Source: Sandaracinaceae bacterium (GTDB taxonomy: Bacteria > Myxococcota_A > Polyangia > Polyangiales > Sandaracinaceae). Taken from it: 64,000 bases of DNA. Made by a program: the position numbers and the translations under genes. The notes under the pieces were generated by a model that did no database searches, had not been told where the DNA came from, and saw only the letters and a program-made list of their open reading frames with translations. Positions 3,563 to 32,578 of this stretch are shown here, in pieces (the stretch's first letter is position 1; every line of letters starts with the position of its first letter). The stretch is from positions 1-64,000 of the forward strand of contig JAHBWG010000033.1 of the NCBI GenBank assembly GCA_019637095.1, in the 5' to 3' direction.

Positions 3563-4300
3563 TCAGAGGGGGCCGTCGACGAGGCCGTGCACGAACTGCC
3601 GCACCTCGGGCACCTCGCTCGCGCGCGCCTCTTCCACGGTGCCCTGCCAGATCAACCGGCCGCGGTGCAGCATCCCGACGCGATCCGCGATCGTCAGCAG
3701 CCCCGCGACGTCGCTCGAGATCACCAGGTTCGTCGTGCCGGCCGCGCGCTGCTCTTCCTTGATCAGGTCGTAGATCTTCTGGCTCGTCACGGGGTCGAGG
3801 CCCGCCGTCGGCTCGTCGTAGAGCAAGAGCCGCGGGCGGGCGACGGTCGCCCGCGCGACGCCGACGCGCTTCTTCTGGCCGCCCGAGAGGCCGCCGACCC
3901 CGCGGTCCTCGAAGCCGGAGAGCGCCATGCGCGCGAGCCGCTCGGCGACGCGCTCCGCGATCTCCGCCTCGGACAGGTCGAGCAGGCGGCGCAGCGGGAA
4001 GGCGATGTTCTCGCCCACCGTCATGTAGTCGAAGAGCGCGTAGTTCTGGAACAGCATGCCGACGTGGCGCCGCATCTCCATCAGCTGCGCCTCGTCCATG
4101 CGCGTGACCTCGCGGCCATCGATCGTCACCGAGCCGCGCGCGGGCGCGATGAGGCCGGCGATGACCTTCATCAGCGTGCTCTTGCCGGCCGCGCCCGGCC
4201 CGATCAGCGCGTAGATGCCCCCCTCGGGGACGCTCAAGCCGACGCCCTCGAGCACCGGCTTGCCCCCGAAGGAGACGTGGACGTCGCGGACCTCGATCAA
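3563..4300 (-). CDS. MlaF-like ABC transporter ATPase with altered H-loop
   Basis: A 245-aa ABC ATPase of the MlaF/Ttg2A type. Walker A reads GPGAAGKST, the Q-loop LFQNYALFD, the signature LSGGQKKRVGVARA and Walker B LLLYDEPTAGLD. The switch position reads VISSDVAG, where MlaF-type proteins have a His (SHDV), so the H-loop His is Ser here. The TTG start at 4300 overlaps the gdhA stop as TTGA, which supports this unusual start and indicates coupling. No MlaE permease or MlaD substrate-binding gene lies nearby, so its partner must be elsewhere. Confidence 0.82.
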   Translation of the reverse strand: MIEVRDVHVSFGGKPVLEGVGLSVPEGGIYALIGPGAAGKSTLMKVIAGLIAPARGSVTIDGREVTRMDEAQLMEMRRHVGMLFQNYALFDYMTVGENIAFPLRRLLDLSEAEIAERVAERLARMALSGFEDRGVGGLSGGQKKRVGVARATVARPRLLLYDEPTAGLDPVTSQKIYDLIKEEQRAAGTTNLVISSDVAGLLTIADRVGMLHRGRLIWQGTVEEARASEVPEVRQFVHGLVDGPL

Positions 4301-5556: not shown

Positions 5557-6324
5557 TCACTCGGTCACGGGGCTCGCGGCGGCCCCCTCGGCGCGGCGCG
5601 CGGAGCGACGTCGGCTCAGGACGAGCGCCGCGGCCAAGAGCAGGTTGAGGGCGAGCGAGCCGCCGAGCAGCGCCTTGAGCAACGCCGCCGTGCCGCGGCT
5701 CACCGCGATGGGGCCGACCCACGCGAGCTGCGGCTCGCGAGGCGCGGCGTCGCGCGCCGGGGTGATCACGACCGAGACGCGCTCCGCGGCGAGTCCGTCG
5801 ACCGCGCCCGCGACGAGGGCGCGCGCCGCGTCCGCGTCGGCGCTCGCGCCCGGTCGCATCGTCAACAGCACCGAGGCGCGCGCCTGGGGTGCGTCGCCGT
5901 CGAGCCGGCGCGCGCCCGTGTCGGGCAGGGCGAGGTGAACGCGCGCCCGCGCGACTCCGTCGAGCTCCTCGAGCGAGCGCGCGAGCTCTCCGCCGAGCGC
6001 CGCGGCGTGCCGCGCGCGCTCCTCGCCCGCGCTCGGCACGAGGCTCGAGCGCTCGAAGAGCGAGGCCCACCCGGGCTCGCGCTCGCGCGGCAGCTCGTGC
6101 GCGCGCAGCACCGCGAGCGCGGCGGGGACCTCCGACCGCGCCACCATCACGCGGTAGCGCGGCGGCTCGCGCGACGGATCGGTCCGCTCGCGCTCGGCGC
6201 CGATCCCGGCCTCGTCGAGCGCGATCACGATCGCGTCCGCCTGCTCCTCGTCGAGACCGGCGCTCAGCTCGGCCTGGCAACCGAGGAGCACGAGCGCGAG
6301 GCCCCAGCGAGATCCCCCGAACAC
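5557..6324 (-). CDS. sctJ: orphan type III secretion inner-ring lipoprotein SctJ/YscJ-like
   Basis: A 255-aa protein matching the YscJ/PrgK/FliF ring-building family. The N-terminal signal ends in a lipobox (VLLGC), then comes the typical SAGLDEEQADAIVIALDEAG, the RYRVMVARSEVPAALAVL strand-helix, the GVARARVHLALPD segment and the RASVLLTMRPG strand. A C-terminal membrane segment (SLALNLLLAAALVL) and a basic tail end the protein, as in SctJ. GTG at 6324 is the start. No other secretion or flagellar gene is nearby, so it either serves a system encoded elsewhere or has been recruited to another role. Confidence 0.75.
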   Translation of the reverse strand: MFGGSRWGLALVLLGCQAELSAGLDEEQADAIVIALDEAGIGAERERTDPSREPPRYRVMVARSEVPAALAVLRAHELPREREPGWASLFERSSLVPSAGEERARHAAALGGELARSLEELDGVARARVHLALPDTGARRLDGDAPQARASVLLTMRPGASADADAARALVAGAVDGLAAERVSVVITPARDAAPREPQLAWVGPIAVSRGTAALLKALLGGSLALNLLLAAALVLSRRRSARRAEGAAASPVTE

Positions 6325-6424
6325 GCGCCGAGCCTAACGCAGATCGCGCCGCCGCGGGTCCTTGCTCCGCGTGGGTGAGGGGTGCGAAGCACCCCAACTC
6401 GAGGCTGTCGATCGATCGCGGCCG

Positions 6425-6461: not shown

Positions 6462-6519
6462 GAACGCGGCTCCGCCGCGTTCGCACCGGGGAGCGGTGCG
6501 AAGCACCCTCAGCAAGAGC

Positions 6520-8436
6520 TCAGTTGGCGCTGAAGGAGTAGCTCGCGCCCATGCGGGGCGCGGGGAAGGACGGGAACTGGATCGCGCGCACGCGCCCCTC
6601 GACGCAGCGCTGGAACGCGGGCGTCCCGTTGCGCACGCTCGCGCCGAGCACGCGCCCGCTGCCCGCGATCGCGATGTCGATGCGGACGTTGCCGCCGCCG
6701 GAGCCCTGCGAGAGGCACGGGACCAGGCGGTTGATGTTCGCGTTCATCACGCCCGCGACCTGTCCCGCGCTCAGGCGCGCCTGGCTGCCGCCGGCCTCGC
6801 CGACGTTCCCGAGGTTCACGACCTGGTTCATCGCGTCCTCGTAGCTCGAGCCGCCGCGCGCGCCGCCGCCGCTCCGGCGGGGCCGGCTGGGATCCTGCGG
6901 CGGATCCGGCAGGAGGCCGGCGGTGCCGACGATCTCGATCTGGCCGGCCGCGTAGAGGTCGGCCAGGTCGGAGTCCGCGCGCTCGGCCTCGTCCTCGACG
7001 TCGGGGCGCGTGACGAGGAAGATCGCGACGCCGACGCCGACCGCGGCCGCGACGACGCCGAGGATCAGCGCCTTGGTCGCCATCGAGACCTTCTCGACCT
7101 TCGCGGAGCGCTCGAGCGCGACCGCGTGATCCGCGGCCTTCTTCTTGAGCTTCCACTGCTCGCAGAACTCCGCGAAGTCCGGCGCCTCACCGACCTTCTG
7201 TCGCGAGCCCGTGTCCATGTTCAAGAGGCCGTGCTCGGCGAGCACGTCGCCCTTGAGGATCAGGTTCACCAGCTCGCGCCCGGAGAACGGGCCGTGGTCG
7301 AGGTTGTCCTTCACGACCATCCAGCGCGGCGCGTCGTTCTCGGTGATCTTCGAGAGGAGGCTCGAGAGATCGACCTCGGCGCTCATCGCGGGCGCCGCGA
7401 CCGCGGGCGCGAGCGAGACGCGGAAGCTCTCCTCCACGGCGACCCGGCGCCCGACCTCGGGAGCGCCCGGCCGCGGCGGGCGCGGCGGGGCGACGCGCGG
7501 GGCGCTCGGCGCGGGCGGCGGCGTCGAGCCGATGTCGACGTCCACGTCCACCTCGACGCCGAAGTCTTCCTCGTCGTGCGAGGCGGTGACCTCCTTCTGC
7601 GCGGCGAGCGCGACGAGCGCGGCGCGCAGCGCCTCCGGCGTCTCGAAGCGTGACGACGGGTCCGCGGCGAGGCACCGCATGAGCACCTCGTCGAGCTCGC
7701 TCGTGGCCTCGGCGTGCGCCTCGGACGGCGCGACGAACTCGTCGAGGGGGCTGCGGCCGGTGAGCATCGTGTAGAGCAGCCCGCCGATCCCGAACACGTC
7801 GCTCTCTGTCGTCGGCCGGTGGCCCGCCTTGACCTCGGGCGCGAGGAACGCCTGCTCGCCCGCGCCGAGCGCGGCGGGCCCGGCCGTCTCGACCACGGCG
7901 AGGTCGACGCCGAGGCTCCCGATCTTCACGCGGCCCGATTTCGTGACGTAGACGACGGTCGGCCGCAGCGCGCCGTGACAAGACCCTTTGTCGCGCACCG
8001 CCTCGAGCGCGCGGCACACGTGCGCGATGACGTTGTACGCGCCGCGCAGGGACATCGGCTCGCCGCCGTGCGCCTTGCTCGCGACCACCTCGGCGAGGCT
8101 CTGCCCCTCGATCCACTCGTTGGCGACGTAGCGCGAGCCGCTCGCCTTGTCGGTGCCCATGCCGTAGGTCGCGACGACGTTCCGGTGCTGCAGCTCGGCG
8201 GCGACCTTGACGTGGCGCCGCAGCGTCTCGACCGCGTCCTCCGTGGCGATCAGGCCGGGCGCGAGGACCCGCACCGCGATCGCGCGCTGCGTCTTCTGAT
8301 CCTTGGCCGCGAGGATCGCCCCGAGCGAGTCCTCGCCGACCGCGCGCTCGATCACGAAGCGGCCGCCGACGACGGTCCCGGGGGCGAGGCCGGAGGGATG
8401 CGCGCCGCTCGCACGAGACGACAGAGGAGTGGGCAT
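6520..8436 (-). CDS. membrane-anchored pseudokinase with GYF-like and AgmX/PglI-type domains
   Basis: A 638-aa protein. Residues 25-285 follow the Ser/Thr kinase fold, but the catalytic sites are lost: the VAIK Lys is Arg56 (IAVRVL), the HRDLKxxN loop reads HGALRPTVV (154-162) and DFG reads SLG (174-176). The AxE/APE (FLAPE) and late kinase helices are kept. A GYF_2-like segment follows (WMVVKDNLDHGPFSGRELV), then one membrane helix (ALILGVVAAAVGVGVAIFLV) and a C-terminal AgmX/PglI-type domain with Cys-containing LVPCLSQG and FQRCVEGR. It probably acts as a scaffold or sensor across the inner membrane. The ATG at 8436 follows a GGGATCC stretch. Confidence 0.8.
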   Translation of the reverse strand: MPTPLSSRASGAHPSGLAPGTVVGGRFVIERAVGEDSLGAILAAKDQKTQRAIAVRVLAPGLIATEDAVETLRRHVKVAAELQHRNVVATYGMGTDKASGSRYVANEWIEGQSLAEVVASKAHGGEPMSLRGAYNVIAHVCRALEAVRDKGSCHGALRPTVVYVTKSGRVKIGSLGVDLAVVETAGPAALGAGEQAFLAPEVKAGHRPTTESDVFGIGGLLYTMLTGRSPLDEFVAPSEAHAEATSELDEVLMRCLAADPSSRFETPEALRAALVALAAQKEVTASHDEEDFGVEVDVDVDIGSTPPPAPSAPRVAPPRPPRPGAPEVGRRVAVEESFRVSLAPAVAAPAMSAEVDLSSLLSKITENDAPRWMVVKDNLDHGPFSGRELVNLILKGDVLAEHGLLNMDTGSRQKVGEAPDFAEFCEQWKLKKKAADHAVALERSAKVEKVSMATKALILGVVAAAVGVGVAIFLVTRPDVEDEAERADSDLADLYAAGQIEIVGTAGLLPDPPQDPSRPRRSGGGARGGSSYEDAMNQVVNLGNVGEAGGSQARLSAGQVAGVMNANINRLVPCLSQGSGGGNVRIDIAIAGSGRVLGASVRNGTPAFQRCVEGRVRAIQFPSFPAPRMGASYSFSAN

Positions 8437-9541: not shown

Positions 9542-10375
9542 TCATCGCTGCGAGCGGCGGACGTAGTCGGGCACCTCGCCCTGCGCGGGGAGCGTCTGGC
9601 CGGGCGGGACGTAGCCGGGCGGCATCCCGCTCGGGCCGAGCGCGGGCAGCGTGTGCGCCGGCGCCACCTGCCCGGGGATCGTGGACGGGCCGATCGCCGG
9701 CGTGACGATCCCCGGCGCCTGCGCCCCGGGCGGCAGCGCCCCCGGCGCGGGCGTCCCCGCGCCCCAGTCCGCCACCCACTCGCCGTCGGTGCGGCTGCCC
9801 GGCGTGCCGCTCGCGCGGTACTCGATCGACGCCGTGATCGTACGCGGCGCGCCCTCGATGGGGGAGGGCAGGCGCAGCGCTTCCGCCCGTCGCGTCATGC
9901 AGGCGACGTCCTCGGCGCGCAGGCCCGGCGCGTTCACGCTCGCGCTCGTGACGCGCCCGGTCGGGGTCGCGCGCACGCTGACGCGGACGGTGAACTGGCC
10001 GCGGACCGTCTCGCGCGAGCCCTCGGAGATGCAGTCCGTCGGCGTGCCGAACGCGGCGCGCAGCGCGTCGGAGTAGTCGGGCTCGCGCGCGCTCGCGGGG
10101 CCCTCGACCGCTGCGACGGGCGCGGTCGCCGGCGCGGCGGTGAGGCCGGGTGTCCCGCGCGGCGCGGGTCCCGCGGGCGGGCTCGGCCGGCGGCTCGGGT
10201 CGCGCGCGCCCGGGCCCGGCAGATCGAGTGAGGGCGCCGGCGCGTGGACGTCGGTCGGCGAGCCCGCGCCGCGCTGTCGCGCCACGGGGACGGGCGCAGG
10301 GGCACCCGTCTCACAGCCCGCCCCGAGGGCGCAGGCCAGGAGGAGCCCGGCACCCGCGTGCCGGACCCGCGTCAC
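9542..10375 (-). CDS. lipoprotein with AgmX/TonB-like C-terminal domain
   Basis: A 277-aa lipoprotein (lipobox ALGAGC near residue 20) with a Pro/Ala-rich linker. A folded domain follows with FTVRVSVRATPTGRVTSASV, a Cys pair (DCISEG and VACMTRRAE) and ALRLPSP, the layout seen in AgmX/PglI and TonB C-terminal domains. The last 70 residues are Pro/Gly-rich, with repeated PPG and PGQ motifs. GTG at 10375 overlaps the helicase TGA as GTGA, so it is the third gene of the coupled set 12231-9542. The pseudokinase 1 kb away carries a similar C-terminal domain, but a link is only inferred. Confidence 0.7.
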   Translation of the reverse strand: MTRVRHAGAGLLLACALGAGCETGAPAPVPVARQRGAGSPTDVHAPAPSLDLPGPGARDPSRRPSPPAGPAPRGTPGLTAAPATAPVAAVEGPASAREPDYSDALRAAFGTPTDCISEGSRETVRGQFTVRVSVRATPTGRVTSASVNAPGLRAEDVACMTRRAEALRLPSPIEGAPRTITASIEYRASGTPGSRTDGEWVADWGAGTPAPGALPPGAQAPGIVTPAIGPSTIPGQVAPAHTLPALGPSGMPPGYVPPGQTLPAQGEVPDYVRRSQR

Positions 10376-27550: not shown

Positions 27551-30500
27551 TCAATCGGACTCGACCGGGCGGTGCCGCAGCGTGCTCCACAGGCGGCCTC
27601 GACCGAGCAGGAGCCGGCGCAGCGCGTGGGTCACGGGCGAGCCGAGGAGGGGCTCGACGCGCTCGATGTCGGTGGCGGCGTCGACGTGGGGCGCGAGCGC
27701 GGCCACGACGGTCTCGTCGTCCGCGTCGTCGGGCAGCTCGGCGCCGGCGCGGAGCGCGTCGACGAGGTGCTCGACGGCGAGCTCTACGCGATCGAGGGCC
27801 GCGCCATCGAGCTCGGCGTCGGCGTCCGGGTGAGGCTCGTCGAAGTCGCCTTCGAGCGCGCGGTCGAAGCGCTCCCACACGGCGTGCCGTGCGCTCGCGT
27901 GGTCGGGCCCGAGCGCGAGCGCTCTATCCGTCGCGCGGCGCGCGAGCGAGCGCCACCCCCACCACCACGCCGAGTGCACCAGGTTGAGGAGCATCCACGG
28001 CCGCGGCGCGGCCCTGCGCGCGTAGTCTCGCAGCCAGATCAGGCACGCGAGCGAGTGCCCGGCGGCGAGCAGCGCGTACCCGAACGAGCCCCAGGTCTGG
28101 TCGTGCCGCCGCAGCCACCGGCCATGTCGGAGCCACGCCCCGAAGATCGCCCACGTACGGCGGGCGGCGCCGAGCCGCTCGATCCAGCCGGCGACCGCGG
28201 CCACGCCCGCGGGTCCGAGCGCGTCGGGCGCGCGCAGCAACCCGCCTGCGCGATCCAGCTCCGCTTCGCCTGCCACCTCGGCCCAGGCCCAGCCGATCGC
28301 GGGGCTCGCGTCCGGGTCGCCCATCCGCGCTTCGACGACGTCGAGCGCGCGCTCGAGCCGGGGTCGCTCCCCGAAGGCGCGCAGCGCCGCTGTCAAGGAA
28401 GATTGCGATACTTCTGGCGTGTCGAGCAGCTGTCCCAGCGCGTGGATCGCGCCGTCCCAGTCCCCGCGTCCGGCCTCGACGCGGACGCGCGCGGACGCCC
28501 GCTCGGGGGGCGCGAACGCGAGCCCACGGACGTCGAGCACGCGCGCCGCTCCCGCGGCGTCCCCGGTCTCGAGCCGCAGGTCGATCAGCGCCGAGACGGC
28601 GTAGGCGTGGCTCGGCAGCAACGCGGCCGTGCGCTCGAACGCCTCGATCGCGCCGGCCCGGTCGCCGGCGATTCGGCGCGCATCGGCGAGGTACAGGTGG
28701 CTCAGGCCGTCGGCGGGTGCGTGCGCCACGAGGAGCTCGGCCTGGCGGACGAACTCGTCCTGTCGCCCGAGATGGTCGAGCCAATCGCACACGGCGCGAC
28801 GGCCCCATGCGTAGCCGGGTGCGCGCTCCAGGACGCCGAGCATGTCGTCGATCGCCTCGGCGACCTCGCCACGGCGCGCGCGCACCCAGGCGCGCCGCCC
28901 GTCGATGGGGTGCGGGACCGGGCCGACCCACTCCGTCGGCGGACAGGCGGCGATCGCCTCGTCGAACCGTCCGGCCTCGGCGAGCACGACGGCGAGCAGA
29001 TCTGCCGCGCGCCCCTCGCGCGGCGAGCGCGCGAGCGCGGCCCGCAGGGCGCGGGCCCGCTCGTCGACAGCGTCGCGTCCGAGCACGAGGGCCAGGCGCA
29101 GCCAGCGGATCGGGTCGCGGTCGTCTTCGGCGAGCTGGGCGCGCAGGCGTCCCGCGGCTTCGTCGGCGCGTCCGAGCTCGTGCGCGTATCCTGCGAGCAG
29201 ATCGAAGGCCGCCTCGTCCAGGGTGTCCTCGTCGAGCGCGGCGAGCAGCTCGTCGAGCGCGTCGCCGCGTGCTCCCTCGGCCCACGCGACCCGAGCCCGC
29301 TCGGCGCGGAGGCTGCTCGAGCGCGGCGTCACCGTGAGCGCATCGTCGAGGACGGCGCGCGCCGCGACGAGATCGCCGCGCTCCCGAAGGAGCGCGGCGA
29401 GTCGAAGGCGCGGCTCGATGCTGCGGGGTGAGAGCGCGATGAGGGCGCGCAGGCTGGCCGCCTCGGCGGCGGCGTCGCCCGCGATCCGGTGTGCGTCGGC
29501 GTGGAGGCGATGGAGTCGGAACCACCGAGGGAACTGCGCGAGGGCTCGTTCGCAGAGGGCGAGGGCTTCACCGGCCTCGCCCGCGTCCAGGCGCGCGTCG
29601 ATGAGCGCCTCCCAAGCGTCGGGGCGGTGCGCGGCGCGCGCGAGCAGGGCCTCGAGGCGCTCGCGTCGCTCCCCGTGCGGGAGGCACGCCGCCGCGCGCG
29701 CGGCCTGGAGCAGACCTGGGCCGGCGCTGATCTTCGTGTCGAGCAGAGACAAGACGAAGCGCACGTCCTCGCGCGCGTCCTCTGCGCCGCCGCCGAGCGC
29801 GGCGAGCTCGTCGATCGCGATCGCGTCGTCGACCCACAGCTCGAGGGCGCGGCGCAGCGACGCGCGCGCGCCCTCGACGTCGCCGGCCCGCGCCAGCAAG
29901 TGCCCCAGGACGCTGTGGCTGGCGTCGTCGTTCGGGGCGCGCGCCACGGTGTCGCGGGCGAGCTCGAGCGCGTGATCCATCGCGCCGAGCGAGGCGTGCA
30001 CGAGCGCGAGCTCGCGGCGAGCCCAGCGATCCTCGGGGCGGGCCCTCAGCCAGGACTCGAGCCGAGCCCGCGCGTCGTCGTCGTCGCGGCCGCGCAGCCA
30101 CCGGCACAGCTCGACCAGCAGGCCGGGCTCCTCGGGCAGCGCGTCGAACGCCGCCGTGACGCGCGCCGTCGCCGCCTCGGCGCCCTCGAGCTGCGCGAGG
30201 ACGTCCGCCAGCATGCCGAGCAGGTCCGAGCGCCACGGCGCGAGCGCGAGCGCCTCCTCGAGCGCGCTGCGCGCCGGCGCGAGCGCGCCGACCGCGAGGT
30301 GGACCTGCGCCGCGGTGGTGTGGCGATCGATCGCGGGCGCCGTCCGCTCGCGGCTCGCCTCGAGCCAGCGCATCGCGGCGGCCGGATCGCCGGCGCCGAT
30401 CTGCGCGCGCGCGATGAGGAGCGCGAGCTCTCCGTCCTCGGGCCGGCGCTCGGCGAGCTCCTCGAGCACCCGCACGCCGCGCTCGGGGTTGCCCGCGTCG

Positions 30501-32530
30501 AGGTAGGCGGCGTGGAGGGTCCGCGCGGGGCCGAGCGCGCGATCCCCGGCGTGGGCCACGCGCTCCTCGAGCAGCGCGAGGGCCTCCTCGCCGCGGCCTT
30601 CGGTGCATGCCCGCTCGTAGTAGGCCATCGCGAAGTGGTCGTCCGCGACGGTGAGGCAGGCGGCGAGCCGGTAGCTGTCGAGGATCGCGGTCGCGCGCGA
30701 CCCGTCGTCCCAGGAGGCCTCGAGATCGGCCAGGACGTGGTGGGCCATGGCGTGGAGCGGCGCGATCCGCAGGGCTCGCCGCAGCAGTCGACGCGCCTCG
30801 TCCACGTGGGCGACCTCGTGGCGCAGGTCCTCCGCCATCGACGTGAGCAGCGCGGGGTCATCGATGCGCACATGCGCCCTCCAGAAGTCGAGGCGCGCCG
30901 CGAGCGGCTGCGTGTGCCGCATGGCCTCGCCCCGCCGCAGGACGAACGCGCCGCACTCGGGGTGGAGCGCCATCAGCGCGTCGTACAGGGGCACGCAGTC
31001 CCCGCGCCGCCCCTCGTAGTGGGCGAGCGCGAGCGCGCCCGAGAGCGCGATGCGCGAGCCGGGACCCTCCTCGGCGAGCGCGGCGGCCGCGGCCCGCGCG
31101 GTCTCGACGTCGTGTGCGTCGAGCGCGCTGTCGATCGCCACGAGGCGGTCCCACAGCCGCGGCGTCGGTCCGAGGTCGAGCGCCTCGAGCGCACCGGCCC
31201 GCCCCCGGGGCGCGAGGACGAGCCCGTGGGGCCCGAACCACGCCTGCTCCTCGAGCGCCTCCTCGGCGAGCTCCACGAGGCTCGTCGTCGAAGGGTCGCG
31301 GAGGAGGAGCGTGCGCCGCGCGAGGTCGTACCCGACGACCGCGGTGCTGTGGGCCTCGACGGTGTGCGCGATGCTCAGAAGGAACGGGAAGCCGGCGTCG
31401 ATCAGGAGCCGGGCACGCGCGAAGTCGACGTCGAGCTGCCGGACGGCGTAGCCCCGCGCGGTCGCCCAGTCGACGGCGCGATGCAGCGGCGTGCCCGCGT
31501 AGCAGATCGCGTCCGCGATCTCGACGTGATCGACGGGGTCGCCGTGAAAAGCGCAGAGCGAGGCGAGGCTCGACGGCAGGCAGGTGACGTGGCGCTGGCG
31601 GATGTGCGGCACTCCGTCGAGCTCGACCCGTGGCAGCGGTGTGCCCTCCTCGAGCGCGGCGAGGGCCGCCGCGAAACGCTCGGGGAAGCCGCGACCGGCG
31701 TCACGCGCGAGCGCCTCGGCGCGGCGGTACGCGCCGCGCAGGTAGGCGGCCTCCGCGCGGCTCCGCGCGATCACCTGGGCGAGCGGGCGCTCGCAGAGGC
31801 GCGCGGCCGTCGCGGCGAGCTCCAGATCTGCTTCGCACGCGTCGTAGCGGCGCAGGGTGAACGCGAGCTCCGCGCGGTGCATCGCGAGCTCGAAGCTCTC
31901 GGGGGTGCGGGGATGCTCGAGCGAGGCGAGCGCCTCTTCGTGTCGGCCGAGCTCACCGAGGAGCGTAGCGCGCTTCGAGAGCAGGCCCGTGCTCGCGAGG
32001 CCGGCGTCGAGGGCCTCCTCGACGATGGCGAGCGCGCCGGCTCGGTCGTCGGCGGCGGAGGCGATCCAGGCGCGGTGCTTCGCGACCCACGCGCGATCGG
32101 CGCCGGCGGCGGCGGCGCGCTCGAGCTCGGCGCGGGCGCGGCCGAAGTCGCGCAGGCTCGCGAGGAAGCCGGCGCGCGCGGCGTGGGCGTCGCCGTACCC
32201 GTCGAGCACCGCGGCGCGGTGTCGCATCCACTCGAGGGCGTGCCAGGGCCCGCGGCGCCCGTGGATGACCAGGGCCATGAAGTGGGCCGCCTCCGCGTCC
32301 GCCGGCGCGTCGCGGTACGCGCGGAACGTCAGCGCCTGAGCGAGGCCTCCCGCGCCGAGCCGCATGGCGAGCCGCGCCGCGAGGATCCGCCCGCGCGGTG
32401 CCGGCCAGAGACGCAGATCGTCGGGCATCCCTGCGCCGAGCGCGCTGGCGAACCGACCCGCGTCGTAGAGCGCGCGTACGGCCTCGAGCGGCTCCGATGG
32501 AGGCGGCAGGGGGAGGGTCACGTGGGTCAT
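27551..32530 (-). CDS. giant TPR protein with embedded C39-like peptidase domain
   Basis: A 1659-aa protein made mostly of TPR helical repeats. Between residues 304 and 429 a C39-like papain-fold domain interrupts them: Gln312, Cys317 (HVTCLPSSLAS), His394 (VEAHSTAVVGYD) and Asp412 (LLLRDPST) fit the oxyanion Gln and Cys-His-Asp triad. More than 20 TPR pairs follow. No signal peptide is visible. In ABC exporters C39 domains cut Gly-Gly leaders, but here no transporter is fused. The ATG at 32530 gives MTHVTLPLPPP; an ATG at 32575 would add 15 residues. It is one of the largest genes of the window and stands upstream of the activase operon. Confidence 0.82.
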   Translation of the reverse strand: MTHVTLPLPPPSEPLEAVRALYDAGRFASALGAGMPDDLRLWPAPRGRILAARLAMRLGAGGLAQALTFRAYRDAPADAEAAHFMALVIHGRRGPWHALEWMRHRAAVLDGYGDAHAARAGFLASLRDFGRARAELERAAAAGADRAWVAKHRAWIASAADDRAGALAIVEEALDAGLASTGLLSKRATLLGELGRHEEALASLEHPRTPESFELAMHRAELAFTLRRYDACEADLELAATAARLCERPLAQVIARSRAEAAYLRGAYRRAEALARDAGRGFPERFAAALAALEEGTPLPRVELDGVPHIRQRHVTCLPSSLASLCAFHGDPVDHVEIADAICYAGTPLHRAVDWATARGYAVRQLDVDFARARLLIDAGFPFLLSIAHTVEAHSTAVVGYDLARRTLLLRDPSTTSLVELAEEALEEQAWFGPHGLVLAPRGRAGALEALDLGPTPRLWDRLVAIDSALDAHDVETARAAAAALAEEGPGSRIALSGALALAHYEGRRGDCVPLYDALMALHPECGAFVLRRGEAMRHTQPLAARLDFWRAHVRIDDPALLTSMAEDLRHEVAHVDEARRLLRRALRIAPLHAMAHHVLADLEASWDDGSRATAILDSYRLAACLTVADDHFAMAYYERACTEGRGEEALALLEERVAHAGDRALGPARTLHAAYLDAGNPERGVRVLEELAERRPEDGELALLIARAQIGAGDPAAAMRWLEASRERTAPAIDRHTTAAQVHLAVGALAPARSALEEALALAPWRSDLLGMLADVLAQLEGAEAATARVTAAFDALPEEPGLLVELCRWLRGRDDDDARARLESWLRARPEDRWARRELALVHASLGAMDHALELARDTVARAPNDDASHSVLGHLLARAGDVEGARASLRRALELWVDDAIAIDELAALGGGAEDAREDVRFVLSLLDTKISAGPGLLQAARAAACLPHGERRERLEALLARAAHRPDAWEALIDARLDAGEAGEALALCERALAQFPRWFRLHRLHADAHRIAGDAAAEAASLRALIALSPRSIEPRLRLAALLRERGDLVAARAVLDDALTVTPRSSSLRAERARVAWAEGARGDALDELLAALDEDTLDEAAFDLLAGYAHELGRADEAAGRLRAQLAEDDRDPIRWLRLALVLGRDAVDERARALRAALARSPREGRAADLLAVVLAEAGRFDEAIAACPPTEWVGPVPHPIDGRRAWVRARRGEVAEAIDDMLGVLERAPGYAWGRRAVCDWLDHLGRQDEFVRQAELLVAHAPADGLSHLYLADARRIAGDRAGAIEAFERTAALLPSHAYAVSALIDLRLETGDAAGAARVLDVRGLAFAPPERASARVRVEAGRGDWDGAIHALGQLLDTPEVSQSSLTAALRAFGERPRLERALDVVEARMGDPDASPAIGWAWAEVAGEAELDRAGGLLRAPDALGPAGVAAVAGWIERLGAARRTWAIFGAWLRHGRWLRRHDQTWGSFGYALLAAGHSLACLIWLRDYARRAAPRPWMLLNLVHSAWWWGWRSLARRATDRALALGPDHASARHAVWERFDRALEGDFDEPHPDADAELDGAALDRVELAVEHLVDALRAGAELPDDADDETVVAALAPHVDAATDIERVEPLLGSPVTHALRRLLLGRGRLWSTLRHRPVESD

Positions 32531-32578
32531 GGCGGGCTCATCGGTGCTGGGCGGTGACGGTTTCGCGCGAACCATCAC

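Follow-up and report, generated by a model that had tools for sequence, protein, structure and literature searches.

An inner-membrane GYF/AgmX-type protein of Sandaracinaceae that carries a genuine pseudokinase and is most likely a scaffold

The gene at positions 6520-8436 of the window (the whole stretch of Sandaracinaceae bacterium DNA analysed here, 64,000 nucleotides) encodes a genuine pseudokinase carried on an inner-membrane protein of the GYF/AgmX type, and this protein is most likely a scaffold. We put at slightly better than even the chance that the kinase C-lobe serves this inner-membrane scaffold as a docking surface and that one large clade of the family is coupled to a SctJ ring resembling that of a needleless type III secretion system (T3SS*). 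The topology, the docking and the identity of the partners are the parts of this reading that we infer. No description of this pseudokinase family was found in the open-licence literature searched. The phylum was already known to have pseudokinases, since 11 of the 99 kinases of Myxococcus xanthus have been reported to be such (PMC6791715).

Results

Domain organization of the window protein

The following features were assigned to the gene.

6520-8436, minus strand: whole gene of the pseudokinase-GYF-TM-AgmX-tail protein, ATG start, 638 aa
7624-8355, minus strand: pseudokinase domain, aa 28-271, with K to R56, HRD to HGA154-156, N to V161 and DFG to SLG174-176
7372-7593, minus strand: Pro-rich cytoplasmic linker, about aa 282-355, with 13 Pro and mostly low pLDDT
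7204-7326, minus strand: GYF-like domain, about aa 371-411, with the DHGPF motif D380-F384
7012-7068, minus strand: membrane helix, hydrophobic peak aa 457-475 inside helix 422-476
6526-6768, minus strand: AgmX/PglI (TonB-like) C-terminal domain, about aa 557-637, with invariant C574 and C611

The N-terminal domain is, by its model, a Hanks-type kinase fold. Pfam Pkinase matched aa 28-271 above its cut-off (E 4.4e-22), and the AF2 model, which was built on a 67-row alignment and had a mean pLDDT of 84, reached 93-98 per ten-residue block over the kinase part (aa 21-280). The best Foldseek matches for this fold were PknA, PknB and PknI. These results uphold the statement of the preliminary description that the kinase fold is retained, and the four catalytic changes that it had listed (R56, A156, V161 and S174) were read directly in the sequence. 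After the linker, the model shows three further elements in this order: aa 371-414 form a small alpha/beta domain, 422-476 a long helix and 557-637 the tail domain. The gene has an open frame with a GC content by codon position of 0.73/0.51/0.97.

Distribution and tree of the family

The C-terminal half was matched in 10 of the 10 genomes of the window's family and in 250 of the 289 genomes of the class, with a single copy in most genomes listed. The class-wide search scored the best candidates per genome and matched the tail alone, so the figure of 250 may include GltJ-like proteins and may miss relatives. With 75 and 73% identity, the closest named relatives of the tail belong to metagenome bins that carry the labels Polyangia and Sandaracinaceae. 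One relative (L165) lies inside a record labelled Micrococcales bacterium, probably a mislabelled metagenome bin.

From the class list, 80 loci were chosen to cover families and not at random; the frames of three of them (L069, L088 and L089) reach contig ends. A quick tree of the C-terminal part, from which L123 was excluded, divides the family into two clades. On this tree the state of the N-lobe changes once, the VAIK Lys at least 2 times and the DFG Asp at least 13 times.

Loss of the catalytic residues and conservation of the fold

The kinase-region alignment comprised 78 rows, the window protein included, and residues were counted over the rows with a residue at the column in question; L089, L090 and L123 were excluded because they hold too little of the kinase region. 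The HRD Asp was found in 0 of 77 rows and the catalytic-loop Asn in 6 of 77. The VAIK Lys (3 of 66 rows) and the DFG Asp (38 of 77) are approximate counts, because in the half-kinase rows described below 17-55 of the 84 N-lobe columns were aligned to frame residues that lie mostly before the start codon, which makes those columns unreliable. Three rows, that of L118 among them, keep the VAIK Lys together with the DFG Asp, so these proteins may still bind nucleotide.

In the window protein, H154-G155-A156, V161 and S174-L175-G176 stand at the catalytic motifs, while A199-P200-E201, D213 and R263 are kept. Over the family, H154 was present in 64 of 77 rows, P200 and E201 (the APE Glu) in 76 of 78, G218 in 74 of 78 and R263 in all 78, and 61 of the 67 members of the full-length alignment received a Pfam kinase call. 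A family-specific HG motif replaces HR in the alignment: all of the 63 rows that have a complete N-lobe carry H154, and 97% of them have Gly as the next residue (G155), where seven control kinases in the same alignment have Arg. As judged from these alignments, the ATP site is not conserved in the family and the fold is, from which we infer that selection acts on the fold and not on catalysis.

The other kinases of the window genome served as controls. When 150 of 356 candidates were scored, at least 141 matches to the window protein were obtained, itself included, and the next best had 33% identity. The 47 best-scoring of the 140 other matches all had the catalytic set intact (Lys, Asp, Asn and Asp). 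The replacements are therefore not a sequencing error, since they are common to the family while all 47 controls from the same genome stay intact. A catalytic version with the same domain layout was also considered and was rejected, with the HRD Asp in none of the 77 rows. A sequencing error or a pseudogene is thus contradicted by changes that the relatives have in common.

A clade with half a kinase and a locus with none

One clade has lost the N-lobe, as read from its sequences. It comprises 13 loci (SH-aLRT 100) with family codes f2 and f6, which are perhaps Polyangiaceae. Its proteins have 514-540 aa and their sequence starts about where the hinge would be. Three of these loci (L102, L110 and L113) come from genomes of one contig, so the half-kinase is not an assembly artefact. 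No significant match to an N-lobe was found in or directly before the frame in any of the 13 loci (best E 0.44, in L102); the same search detected the N-lobe of six full-length controls at E 2.6e-17 or better. A split gene with a separate N-lobe was rejected on this ground. N-lobe matches in L103, L110, L113 and L119 lie more than 1.5 kb away and resemble other kinases.

The model of the L110 protein had a mean pLDDT of 69.9, with 80-95 per block over aa 21-190, and its Foldseek matches, PknB and further kinases, covered about 170-195 columns (best E 6.7e-8). The remaining half is identified as the C-lobe by the sequence alignment, in which the half-kinase rows fill 155-157 of the 167 C-lobe columns, since the Foldseek table gives no ranges. 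This clade supports the view that the kinase fold was retained for the surface of its C-lobe. In a further locus (L090:9221-10126, plus strand) the frame consists of GYF, helix and tail, and no kinase part was found in the frame or in the fetched surrounding DNA; sctJ is still adjacent. The pseudokinase is therefore not needed everywhere.

The C-terminal half

The GYF and AgmX labels given in the preliminary description fall below the curated cut-offs on the window protein itself, but each of the two profiles matches part of its relatives. GYF_2 (PF14237) had no Pfam match in the window protein, and it matched 13 of the 80 aligned C-terminal parts at E <= 0.01 (best 7.8e-5) and 2 of the 67 full-length members at E <= 0.001. 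G382 and P383 of the DHGPF motif are invariant. The myxo_SS_tail model (NF033768) gave 20.9 and 22.7 bits on the window protein against a curated cut-off of 40 and matched 59 of the 80 C-terminal parts (E <= 0.01, best 1.6e-11); the tail cysteines are invariant as well. The GltJ model (NF033761) matched 32 of the 80 members and the GltG model 22 (E <= 0.01), with the window protein reaching 15.9 bits against a GltJ cut-off of 450 and 15.7 against a GltG cut-off of 650. Among solved structures, nothing convincingly similar to the C-terminal half was found (best E 0.04). A second weak AgmX/TonB-like tail (E 0.0015, below cut-off) lies near the pseudokinase gene, at window positions 9542-10231 on the minus strand.

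Neighbouring genes

Directly downstream of the pseudokinase gene lies the following gene.

5557-6324, minus strand: SctJ-like YscJ/FliF-type ring lipoprotein, 255 aa

This protein matched PF01514 with 90.9 bits (cut-off 24.4, E 1.2e-25) and the SctJ model TIGR02544 with 132.6 bits, below the cut-off of 161.95, and an LGC lipobox-like start is visible in its sequence. With a profile made from these proteins, 49 of 81 loci were seen to have sctJ immediately after the gene in the same orientation; setting aside the four that end too soon leaves 49 of the 77 loci with room. The spacing, taken between the frame end and the aligned domain and not the sctJ start codon, is 9-395 bases in 47 loci, and two overlap by 12. 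The 49 loci cover 15 family codes.

The arrangement follows the two clades. In the larger clade sctJ is adjacent in 49 of the 58 loci with room, against 0 of 18 in the other, and at least 6 changes of this state are needed on the tree. Of the 19 loci of this second clade, 11 have a gene for a 7TM-HD membrane protein immediately downstream in the same orientation (L091, L096, L099, L100, L104, L105, L106, L111, L115, L116 and L118), and this neighbour is absent in 9 of 9 sampled loci of the sctJ clade. HD and 7TM-7TMR_HD matches were obtained in all four of these proteins that were scanned, and we take them to be of the cyclic-dinucleotide hydrolase type. Since the downstream gene differs between the clades, the neighbour was exchanged once or more, so that two different genes have been close partners of the pseudokinase gene.

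In many loci, the genes beyond sctJ encode an ABC ATPase, a permease and an MCE protein, and one example of each, when scanned, matched ABC_tran, MlaE and MlaD. Genes of Mla/MCE-type ABC transporters were seen at window positions 3563-4297 (minus strand) and in L107, L117, L119 and others. A DEAD-box helicase resembling that of the window was found in 19 of 80 loci. The preliminary description had associated the architecture with gliding motility and envelope complexes. A gliding complex in particular is not what the neighbourhood points to: the conserved downstream neighbour is a SctJ-type lipoprotein or a 7TM-HD protein, and no gliding gene was identified among the conserved neighbours examined, which were a subset of the clusters.

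The gap between the pseudokinase and sctJ genes gave no sign of RNA structure (z-score 0.02). A 13-base hairpin-like motif occurs twice in it (6381-6393 and 6495-6507, where 0.01 would be expected by chance), and in the fetched loci this motif was present only in three copies of this same place.

Type III secretion genes in the class

YscJ-family matches were obtained in 214 of the 289 class genomes and FHIPEP matches in 244, flagella included in both counts. The window genome has a single YscJ match, which is the gene at window 5557-6324, and a single FliP/SctR-family match; FHIPEP had no match in this assembly of 197 contigs. With a FliP/SctR-family gene present and the assembly in 197 contigs, the absence of FHIPEP may be an assembly gap or a real loss alike. 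The presence of the FliP/SctR-family gene also led us to reject an orphan ring without an export machine. No other T3SS gene was found among the 26 window proteins scanned with Pfam. Elsewhere in the window, an open frame of 1675 aa (27551-32578, minus strand) combines TPR repeats with a C39-like peptidase domain.

A T3SS cluster around sctJ, sctV or sctR was considered and was not seen among the conserved genes of the stretches compared. In 10 of the 12 FHIPEP loci fetched and in 10 FliP loci, no other T3SS gene was recognised among the conserved neighbours, so the T3SS appears to be scattered. The sctV (FHIPEP) and sctR (FliP) genes of L125-L131, L134-L136 and L137-L146 lie near genes such as dnaX, recR and alaS, as named from sequence. 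In genus g8, nine genomes with the pseudokinase gene are listed without YscJ and without FHIPEP (G031 and G040, for example); the pseudokinase match of G031 has an E value of 3.2e-56, and FliP is also absent in the two genomes of the genus that were tested. These genomes keep the gene without a T3SS, which therefore cannot be the only client.

Discussion

Comparison with known systems

A layout like that of the window protein, with a cytoplasmic N-terminal pseudokinase, a single helix and an outer C-terminal domain, is known from EssB/YukC, a hub of the secretion machine in the type VIIb secretion system (T7SSb). In our reading the window protein would work in a similar way. The window protein differs in having no EssB-family Pfam match (only Pkinase and PK_Tyr_Ser-Thr at E <= 0.1), in its GYF-like domain, Pro-rich linker and AgmX/TonB-like tail, and in having sctJ as its neighbour and not ess genes. 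FHA domains of the ATPase copurify with the pseudokinase part of EssB/YukC, in a manner that the authors consider phosphorylation-independent, and YukC did not bind ATP (PMC10765036, PMC9600267). The preliminary description had called a dead kinase as an inner-membrane scaffold unusual; such proteins are indeed rare, but EssB/YukC provides a precedent.

GltJ (AgmX) carries a zinc ribbon and a GYF domain. With GltG (PglI), it shares with the window protein a cytoplasmic head, one helix and an AgmX/TonB-like tail; the window protein differs in its pseudokinase head, in scores far under the cut-offs and in that no gliding genes were identified adjacent to it. MviN of Mycobacterium, which is polytopic, has a membrane-linked kinase-like domain as the window protein does. 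It is described as a peptidoglycan-synthesis protein that is phosphorylated by PknB and binds the FHA protein FhaA (PMC3601408). EcpK of Myxococcus xanthus is likewise a myxobacterial pseudokinase and has been proposed as a scaffold of an inner-membrane machine, but it resembles bacterial tyrosine kinases (PMC12004946), whereas the window protein is Hanks-type. As for the secretion system itself, the T3SS* of Myxococcus xanthus is reported to have SctJ and to lack the secretin and the needle (PMC10433427, PMC3459982, PMC12075869), and in Myxococcus the T3SS is reported to act in predation (PMC10433427, PMC12075869). Its parts are described as one cluster there, in contrast to sctV and sctR, which have no conserved T3SS neighbours in the loci compared here.

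Alternative explanations

The alternative that deserves most weight, although we doubt it, is a GltJ/GltG-like protein of the envelope or of energy transduction (gliding-type or TonB/Tol-like), in which a pseudokinase has replaced the FHA or zinc head and sctJ is merely an inherited gene order. GltG, with its FHA plus TonB layout, shares the cytoplasmic head, the one helix and the TonB-like tail (PMC3169522), the GltJ and GltG models match 32 and 22 of the 80 members, and both one clade and genus g8 retain the gene in the absence of sctJ. However, the window protein reaches only 15.9 of 450 and 15.7 of 650 bits with these models, no glt gene was identified among the conserved neighbours examined, and the sctJ adjacency extends over 15 family codes.

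We consider it distinctly improbable that the protein is a nucleotide-sensing pseudokinase, that is, one that binds ATP or relays a nucleotide signal (with the 7TM-HD protein) without catalysis and so switches a membrane complex. The DFG Asp that persists in about half of the rows (38 of 77) and the VAIK Lys in 3 of 66 would fit it, as would the neighbour of the hydrolase type in 11 of 19 loci of one clade. Against it, both residues are lost in the window protein, the N-lobe is absent in 13 loci, and the tree shows no fewer than 13 changes of the DFG Asp. Least credible by far is a decaying pseudogene, a sequencing artefact or an unselected relic. Decay would explain the lost catalytic residues, the missing N-lobe of one clade and the complete absence of a kinase part in L090; but the frame is open with its GC content by codon position as given above, the C-terminal half occurs in 250 of the 289 class genomes, the residues of the fold are conserved, and the family has its own HG motif (G155 in 97% of 63 rows).

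A possible mechanism

A scaffold role is likely for the family, and the evidence suggests that its kinase part is now a docking surface rather than an enzyme. In the scaffold that we favour, the kinase fold has lost catalysis and, over much of the family, also the residues that bind ATP and magnesium. Its C-lobe, the part that is conserved most of all, would be the docking surface for a cytoplasmic partner, perhaps an FHA domain by analogy with EssB/YukC, and the Pro-rich linker with the GYF-like domain would form a second contact site. The single helix would span the inner membrane. On the periplasmic side, the AgmX/TonB-like tail and its pair of invariant cysteines would bind a component of the envelope. 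In the larger clade the inner-membrane ring formed by SctJ, as part of a needleless T3SS*-like machine, would be the likeliest client, because the gene stands directly before sctJ; in the other clade the protein may serve the 7TM-HD membrane protein. The link to the T3SS is plausible from gene order and limited to part of the family, and the link to gliding is weak.

A more specific proposal, which we think unlikely as it stands, places the protein, as a structural component, in a needleless T3SS-like machine for predation. It would partner the SctJ ring, and its C-lobe would recruit an FHA-bearing component of the ring or the sorting platform, a solution reached independently of EssB/YukC. 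Part of the family would have kept the C-lobe only because the docking face alone was needed.

Implications

The family presents, side by side, a full kinase fold, a half-kinase without the ATP lobe and a protein with no kinase part. On evolutionary grounds alone, this series speaks for the view that a kinase fold of bacteria can persist as a protein surface. The model in which the C-lobe docks an FHA domain is testable, and the conserved sctJ neighbour offers an entry to the poorly understood needleless T3SS* that Myxococcus uses against its prey.
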